From: Flavobacteriaceae bacterium
Lineage (GTDB): Bacteria > Bacteroidota > Bacteroidia > Flavobacteriales > Flavobacteriaceae
Direction of reading: 5' to 3'
Length of the DNA stretch: 64,000 nt
NCBI GenBank assembly: GCA_029243165.1
Contig: JAQWSN010000003.1
Span: 62,001 to 126,000 of the forward strand
Notes under the pieces: model-generated
What the model was told of the DNA's origin: nothing
What the model saw: the letters and a program-made list of their open reading frames with translations, nothing else
Database searches by the model: none
In this document: positions 32,436-33,601 of the stretch, piece after piece
Position numbering within the stretch: the first letter of the stretch is position 1
Layout: each line of letters begins with the position of its first letter
Position numbers and translations under genes: made by a program

Positions 32436-32466
32436 TTTCTTCTCAAGATTGGGATTCCTATATTTG
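32436..32466 (+). promoter_or_regulatory. Promoter of the short transcription unit
   Basis: TTTC at 32436-32439, a 19-nt spacer, then an exact TATATTTG at 32459-32466. The expected start point is about 32472. It starts inside the antiporter stop region and drives a unit of roughly 165 nt ending at a strong terminator. Confidence 0.6.
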
Positions 32467-32528
32467 AAATGAGAAGTTCGAGCTGTGACAACAGCTAAGT
32501 TTAACTAAATGTAGAAAGGAGGTGTCTT

Positions 32529-32591
32529 ATGTCTTATGAAAATCATTTGAGGAATTCAAGACAGCAGGTGCCTACTCATGGCCCGCTGTAA
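32529..32591 (+). CDS. Putative 20-residue peptide with ideal Shine-Dalgarno
   Basis: The ORF encodes MSYENHLRNSRQQVPTHGPL and stops at TAA 32589-32591. GGAGG at 32518-32522 sits 6 nt before the ATG, the ideal distance, inside a 13-nt match to the 16S tail. Almost no other gene in this window has such a site, as expected in this phylum. Codons such as AGG, CCG and CTG are unlike the neighbours, which may reflect RNA structure. It is basic, lacks a membrane segment and has no family I know. It could be a leader peptide for the oxygenase gene downstream, or not translated. Confidence 0.4.
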   Translation: MSYENHLRNSRQQVPTHGPL

Positions 32592-32610
32592 TATTCCTTA
32601 TCTATGTATA

Positions 32611-32637
32611 AAGCGAGCCGATGGGCTCGCTTTTTTT
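32611..32637 (+). terminator. Strong intrinsic terminator before the 2OG oxygenase gene
   Basis: AAGCGAGCC / GGCTCGCTT stem (32611-32619 / 32624-32632), GATG loop and a seven-T tract. It ends only 13 nt before the ATG of the next gene, so that gene needs read-through or attenuation control unless it has an unseen promoter. Confidence 0.88.
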
Positions 32638-32650
32638 AAACCTTCAAACC

Positions 32651-33601
32651 ATGCAAAAAATTCCTCAGGCCGACTTAAACGCTTTTCTTTCCGAAGATAT
32701 TCAACAACAAAAAGCATTTGTACAAAAAGTAGGGAACGCCTTTGAAGAAATCGGATTCTTGGCCCTCAAAGGGCATTTCCTAGATCGTGAACTGCAAACA
32801 GCTCTTTATCGAGAAATCAAGGCTTTTTTTGCTCTCCCTGATGAAATAAAAAATTCCTACGAAATAAAAGGAGGCGGTGGACAGCGAGGTTACACCGGTT
32901 TCGGAAAAGAACATGCTGAAGGAAGAAATGTTGGCGATTTAAAAGAATTTTGGCACTTTGGTCAAGATCTAGAAAGTCATCCTAACCTAAAATCTAATTA
33001 TCCTGAAAACATTCAAGTTAAACAATTGGATGCTTTCAATTCCATTGGTAACACCGTTTTCAAACGTTTAGAAAAAACAGCCCAAATACTTCTTCAAGCC
33101 ATTGCTTTGTACCTGGATCTCGATCTAAACTATTTTGATCGTTACATCTTGGAAGGAAACTCGATACTAAGAGCCATTCATTACCCTCCAATAACAGAAG
33201 CCCCGAAAGAAGCTGAACGTGCTGCTGCTCATGGAGACATTAATCTTATCACCCTTCTCATGGGAGCTCAGGGAAGTGGATTACAGGTTTTAAATAGACA
33301 AAATGAGTGGATTGATGCCATTGCCGAACCTGACGAATTAATTGTAAATGTTGGAGATATGCTTTCCCGTTTAACCAATAACAAACTTCCATCCACCATT
33401 CACAGGGTTGTAAATCCACCCGAAAAAGATTGGTCTAAAGCTCGTTACTCCCTCCCTTTCTTTATGCATCCTGTACCTCATATGCCCCTAAACTGTTTGT
33501 CACAAACAGTTGATGAAAAGCACCCAAAAAAATACGATGATATTACCGCAGGTGAGTTTTTGCATCAACGACTCGTAGCATTAGGGCTCTTTGATAGCTG
33601 A
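32651..33601 (+). CDS. 2-oxoglutarate/Fe(II)-dependent oxygenase, IPNS-like
   Basis: A 316-residue cytosolic dioxygenase of the isopenicillin N synthase/ACC oxidase family. The iron ligands are H194 and D196 in AAAHGDINLITLL and H251 in STIHRVVNP. The 2OG-binding Arg is R265 in KARYSLPFF. The N-terminal DIOX_N-like region has the RGYTGFGKE segment. The substrate is unknown. I chose ATG 32651 because an in-frame ATG at 32621 is inside the terminator hairpin. Its 3' end overlaps the convergent serine hydrolase gene by 21 nt. Confidence 0.9.
   Translation: MQKIPQADLNAFLSEDIQQQKAFVQKVGNAFEEIGFLALKGHFLDRELQTALYREIKAFFALPDEIKNSYEIKGGGGQRGYTGFGKEHAEGRNVGDLKEFWHFGQDLESHPNLKSNYPENIQVKQLDAFNSIGNTVFKRLEKTAQILLQAIALYLDLDLNYFDRYILEGNSILRAIHYPPITEAPKEAERAAAHGDINLITLLMGAQGSGLQVLNRQNEWIDAIAEPDELIVNVGDMLSRLTNNKLPSTIHRVVNPPEKDWSKARYSLPFFMHPVPHMPLNCLSQTVDEKHPKKYDDITAGEFLHQRLVALGLFDS

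Follow-up and report, generated by a model that had tools for sequence, protein, structure and literature searches.

An independent small gene, with a promoter and a terminator of its own, can be read from the sequence immediately upstream of a 2OG-Fe(II) oxygenase gene in the flavobacterial DNA analysed here, and its predicted RNA is about 165 nt long. We propose, at a probability of roughly 55%, that this RNA is a mini-mRNA on which ribosomes lacking bS21, with the tail of their 16S rRNA exposed, would dock and translate a 20-codon open reading frame (ORF). The proposal draws on an extended Shine-Dalgarno sequence (SD) conserved between genera, on a frame kept open in all homologues and on covarying folds around the start codon.

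The window, a stretch of 64,000 nucleotides, holds the unit on its forward strand. The promoter (32436–32466) consists of TTTC at 32436–32439, a 19-nt spacer and TATATTTG at 32459–32466. Downstream lie a 5' hairpin with a GACA loop, P1 (AGCTGTGACAACAGCT, 32481–32496); a 13-nt match to the anti-SD, TAGAAAGGAGGTG (32512–32524), which includes the extended SD AGAAAGGAGGTG (32513–32524); and an ORF of 20 codons plus TAA (MSYENHLRNSRQQVPTHGPL, 32529–32591), whose ATG at 32529 stands 6 nt 3' of GGAGG. The ORF contributes to a second hairpin, P2 (32548–32600), with a base pairing 32548–32555 with 32593–32600 and a top pairing 32561–32572 with 32580–32589, the latter visible in the window sequence as a bulged hairpin at 32561–32589. 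P3 (32610–32637) is an intrinsic terminator with a conserved GAUG loop and a T run, and 13 nt past that run is the ATG (32651) of the neighbouring oxygenase gene (32651–33601, same strand; PF14226 and PF03171). Every element that an earlier note on this DNA had listed is present at the position it gave. The RNA 32472–32636 has a predicted fold of −54.9 kcal/mol (z −4.65), which none of 200 shuffles equalled. A simple terminator scan reported no terminator at 32610–32637, though stem and T run are plain and conserved, presumably because the 10-bp stem consumes part of the T run.

By DNA search, 32 of 36 genomes of the same genus carry the unit (E ≤ 6.8e-25). The four genomes without a match (G002, G011, G020 and G021) are 56–82% complete; at E 1e-10, three of them gave no match to the upstream antiporter gene, the unit or the oxygenase, and in G020 the match was confined to the front of the antiporter. 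The strongest hit across 23 genomes from other families had an E of 1.1e-4, and the matches listed for these genomes were short. With a covariance model the unit was detected across nine genera of the family, in 17 of 397 genomes (E ≤ 3.5e-10), all of the 17 being assemblies of at most 2.2 Mb; matches in 58 further family genomes, at 1.8e-6 or weaker, we take for terminator-like hairpins and not the unit. An order-wide search with the model at E 1e-5, covering 395 genomes (297 of them at least 90% complete), matched the unit's own genome alone, and the exact P1–SD pattern was absent from viral contigs. No description of the unit was found in the open-licence literature, preprints excluded.

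For comparison we aligned 45 units, 30 from loci of the genus and 15 from other lineages, leaving out near copies (L144 of L066, L153 of L152), genus repeats (L141–L143) and further genus members (L031–L033). In 42 of the 45 a TAnnTTTG box precedes the AAAGGAGG core by 53–56 nt; L152, L155 and L157 have none. Among ten genus representatives, identity between genera is 97% for the SD, 86% for the terminator and 79% for P1; for the peptide it is 42% over residues 2–9 and 16% over residues 10–19. Hairpins, SD and ORF are all kept in relatives, the SD far better than the peptide, and this conservation, together with covariation between genera, bears out both the stand-alone unit of about 165 nt and the hairpins that the earlier note had proposed. 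One copy, L157 in G330, is decaying, with damage to SD, 5' hairpin and terminator, and no oxygenase was found in that genome. In G018, two pieces of the unit lie close to the ends of contigs C126 and C78, which may represent a second copy or the same copy assembled twice where the contigs overlap.

Bacteroidota seldom use SD pairing, because their ribosome hides the 16S tail, which in Bacteroidia normally lies behind bS21, bS18 and bS6; rpsU is the noted exception. The 13-nt match had been called striking for this reason, and the comparison upholds that judgement: the SD is kept between genera at the strength of that of rpsU. GAAAGGAGGTG occurs once in the window versus 0.06 times expected (5 of 100 shuffles had at least one), and a chance hit is unlikely. 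In the unit's own genome GAAAGGAGG is followed by an ATG 4–11 nt downstream at four sites, of which only rpsU and the unit read GAAAGGAGGTG. Seven other GAAAGGAGG...ATG stretches mostly lie inside longer frames or open only 2–3 codons.

No match to the 16S tail was found in the own genome or in 60 relatives, and we took its letters to be those of F. johnsoniae. With these assumed letters, the SD of the window's unit has a predicted pairing energy of −20.1 kcal/mol. The mean over 45 units is −19.2 kcal/mol, versus −19.3 for each of two rpsU start regions of the genus. In 44 of the 45 the energy is −15.9 kcal/mol or lower, the exception being the decayed L157 at −12.9, so the same 44 fall below the −13 kcal/mol in the SD window that marks rpsU-type pairing. 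The start codon follows the SD by 5 nt in 15 units and by 6 nt in 30. The F. johnsoniae tail ends at U1544 (PMC9976891); the 13-nt match is present as claimed, but with such a tail only 12 of its 13 nt can pair.

The unit does not encode bS21. The gene for that protein, rpsU, lies at a separate locus of the same genome (G000:C4), the encoded bS21 has Tyr54 and the genome shows the published rpsU arrangement. GAAAGGAGG is present in 20 of 25 rpsU loci examined in the genus. Two genomes of the genus have a weakened SD at rpsU (L140 in G015 and L117 in G024), and G015 retains the full SD in the unit; with the one intact and the other decayed, unit and rpsU need not act together. In G047, which belongs to another family of the order, two GAAAGGAGGT sites stand ahead of 19- and 21-codon frames (L204 and L205), with no sequence kinship to the unit as far as they were compared.

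The ORF is a conserved feature of the unit. Its frame is open in 45 of 45 homologues, and the two alternative frames are interrupted by stops in 44 and 45 of them. It is 20 codons long in 31 units, 21 in ten, 19 in two and 26 in two, ending in TAA (25), TAG (17) or TGA (3). In L097 and L105, the two with 26 codons, the stop comes about 5 nt ahead of the terminator stem and the oxygenase start is likely GTG. Conservation of the frame across three stop types argues against an untranslated RNA that pairs with other mRNAs in trans and carries the ORF incidentally; a stand-alone transcription unit with covarying hairpins would suit such an RNA, which we nevertheless regard as very improbable. Within the genus, dN is 0.23 versus a dS of 0.60 (dN/dS ~0.38; 322 usable pairs among 26 ORFs), and codons 2–15 give ~0.34. 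Some constraint on the peptide therefore exists, and the peptide may matter. It might even be the product itself, a small effector made mainly by tail-exposed ribosomes, as the universal retention of the ORF, the dN/dS ratio and the M(S/F)Y...LR pattern with which most ORFs begin would suggest. We consider this a possible but rather unlikely account, given the low identity of residues 10–19 between genera; moreover, the conserved N-terminal codons overlap paired RNA, so that their conservation may in part reflect constraint on the RNA. By inspection most peptides look polar; a type I toxin mRNA would encode a hydrophobic membrane peptide and be paired with an antisense RNA. Of a secreted peptide, which the earlier note had entertained, there is by inspection no sign in these short, polar sequences with their unconserved C-terminal half.

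The folds of the unit were examined with RNAalifold on 33 MAFFT-aligned sequences and with swap tests, in which the own partner of a segment was compared with those of other genera, using one sequence per genus in three overlapping sets of ten. The genomes are metagenome-assembled (MAGs), many of them incomplete, and the sequences are related, so that the shuffle counts given here are no strict probabilities; alignment A3 leans to the structure of the model to which it was fitted. The RNAalifold consensus comprises P1, a long-range pairing over SD and start codon (32514–32602) and the terminator, with 98.1% of cells paired and 11 pairs with two-sided change, each value reached by none of 500 shuffles. 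The helices that hide the SD and start codon, 32521–32526 with 32567–32572, 32530–32534 with 32559–32563 and 32514–32520 with 32595–32602, are paired in 97–100% of cells, and P3 has four pairs with two-sided changes. In the swap tests, pairing in P1, P2 top, P2 base and P3 was stronger between native arms than after exchange with other genera (0 to 3 of 5000 shuffles). The arms of P1 gave −5.94 kcal/mol versus −4.19 when swapped (0 of 5000, set A), and P2 top and P2 base each gave 0 of 5000 in all three sets. By columns, P2 top is 82.4% paired (none of 500 shuffles as high; 33 sequences) but its covariation is weak, the score being reached by 55 and the two-sided pairs by 210 of 500 shuffles, so the swap tests are the main support for P2. 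Single-sequence folds of the 3' part of the ORF have a mean z of −1.63, with 29 of 45 below −1. An additional stem around P1, AGUU/AACU, was rejected: 85.4% of its cells are paired, but two-sided change occurs in one of four pairs, and in one cell.

The middle of the ORF also covaries with the start region, at 2–5 of 5000 shuffles (0.0004–0.001) in the three one-per-genus sets. Within that region, AUGNNNN paired with the ORF middle at 0.043 with one sequence per genus, and the SD-proximal GGAGGUG with the ORF middle alone showed no covariation (0.08; 1.0 with one per genus). The pairing of the SD with 32595–32602 is invariant, free of two-sided change and borderline in the swap test (0.03–0.07). 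From repeated ACAGC/GCTGT segments the earlier note had expected competing folds; the one between the 5' arm of P1 and the ORF middle is weakly supported (none of 2000 shuffles when 22 related sequences were used; 0.016–0.032 with one per genus), and that between start region and ORF middle is better supported. Since the ORF middle covaries both with the start region and with the ORF end, it has two mutually exclusive partners. Imposing the complete hidden fold takes the RNA 0 to 19.6 kcal/mol above its minimum, and the unit of the window 9.1; L019 and L021 alone have this fold as the minimum itself. To expose the SD takes 3.7 kcal/mol on average, far below the predicted 16S pairing. These energies speak against a switch poised evenly between the two states: the hidden one may be weak or short-lived, and the RNA probably adopts the open form as a rule.

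The earlier note had also offered the unit as a leader peptide or attenuator for the oxygenase gene, on which reading translation of the short ORF would decide whether transcription reaches that gene. Within the genus the arrangement is suggestive. At 30 of 30 loci the oxygenase adjoins the unit, its start lying 1–19 nt past the terminator's fourth T, and at all of them the stretch from the SD to that start is free of a TAnnTTTG box; with no recognisable promoter of its own, the oxygenase is there probably reached by read-through. G012 (L026) shows a local rearrangement: the pair of unit and oxygenase is preserved there and follows a riboflavin-synthase-like gene, and the antiporter is found on a different contig. 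Outside the genus the arrangement dissolves: the oxygenase adjoins the unit at only 6 of 14 loci, and the other eight have no oxygenase within 1.5 kb downstream; by inspection their downstream neighbours include a glycosyltransferase-like gene and genes in convergent orientation, among others. In G243, G236 and G409 unit and oxygenase are on different contigs, and five of ten unit-bearing genomes searched yielded no oxygenase (G111, G330 with its decayed unit, G339, G124 and G307; completeness 85–91%). At L145 the oxygenase has a TATCTTTG box of its own. Of at least 591 named oxygenase loci, the best 80 include six with the unit, and by eye most of the other 74 have a TAnnTTTG-like box close upstream of the gene. 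The 5' arm of the terminator has no covarying upstream partner that could act as antiterminator (0.40–0.85 in three one-per-genus sets; 0.15 with 22 sequences); a protein- or ribosome-mediated antiterminator may take its place. On synteny and the lack of a covarying antiterminator we reject attenuation of the oxygenase as a general role; within the genus the unit may act as a read-through leader, and we judge control of this kind improbable as the explanation of the unit. Its persistence where the oxygenase is elsewhere or was not found marks it as a gene in its own right. A tie to the antiporter, which lies upstream of the unit at 14 of 14 other-genus loci, was likewise rejected in view of G012 and of the unit's own promoter.

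Among the readings first offered, a candidate RNA that binds 30S subunits through its SD fits best. In the mini-mRNA that we propose, promoter and terminator would yield an RNA of about 165 nt in which the extended SD sits between P1 and the P2 formed by the ORF. Ribosomes without bS21 expose the 16S tail and favour extended-SD mRNAs, as described for rpsU in PMC9976891. As the unit is predicted to pair as strongly as rpsU does, we infer that its reader would be the same ribosomes, which would dock on the RNA and translate its 20 codons. Pairing of the ORF middle with the start region would hide initiation, pairing with the ORF end would open it, and docking might hold or tip the RNA into the open state. 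That SD, ORF length and hairpins are kept far better than the peptide suggests that docking or translation itself is the likely function; we therefore suggest, with some reserve, that the unit acts as a sensor or decoy for tail-exposed ribosomes rather than through a peptide effector. The fullest version, a two-state mini-mRNA that would report or soak up such ribosomes, with docking as the regulatory act and the peptide secondary, is offered only tentatively.

Several known systems resemble the unit. Structured 5' elements and small RNAs of Flavobacterium psychrophilum such as Rfp18 are likewise small flavobacterial transcripts with strong folds; compared by description only, in the part of PMC9723704 used here, they are given no extended SD or ORF. 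A search of the window against Rfam, one of the checks that had been suggested, gave 0 matches, and the best sub-threshold resemblance (32506–32633) was to CC2171 (RF01867), which from its name is presumably a Caulobacter small RNA. The CC2171 consensus has GAAAGGAGGUG, a full anti-SD match, then a possible GUG start codon and a terminal hairpin, and is perhaps a parallel case; the unit scores only 21.6 bits, whereas the gathering score is 75. Leader-peptide attenuators, including the trans-acting peTrpL (PMC7298713), share a short ORF, an ORF hairpin and a terminator downstream. Unlike them, the unit lacks a covarying antiterminator and a fixed downstream gene and is its own gene unit.

The closest likeness is to the rpsU mRNA of Flavobacteriales, whose autoregulation through an extended SD is described in PMC9976891. 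Both belong to the same order, are transcribed on their own and form 9–13 pairs with the 16S tail at a predicted energy near −20 kcal/mol. The unit differs in encoding a 20-residue ORF instead of a ribosomal protein, in an SD-to-start spacing of 5–6 nt (9 nt in its own genome's rpsU), and in its covarying hairpins and a terminator directly after the ORF. Extended-SD rpsU is reported there as widespread; the unit was detected in no more than 17 of the 397 family genomes, so it is not needed for rpsU control. In a scan of annotated complete genomes, rpsU was typically the sole extended-SD gene in Flavobacteriales, and SD-dependent control was concluded to be limited to it (McNutt et al. 2023, PMC9976891); a unit whose ORF has only 20 codons is easily missed. 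If our reading is right, the unit joins rpsU as a second extended-SD target in Flavobacteriaceae. Specialised bS21-lacking ribosomes may then have another target, and the unit would be a compact RNA for asking how such ribosomes choose their mRNAs.
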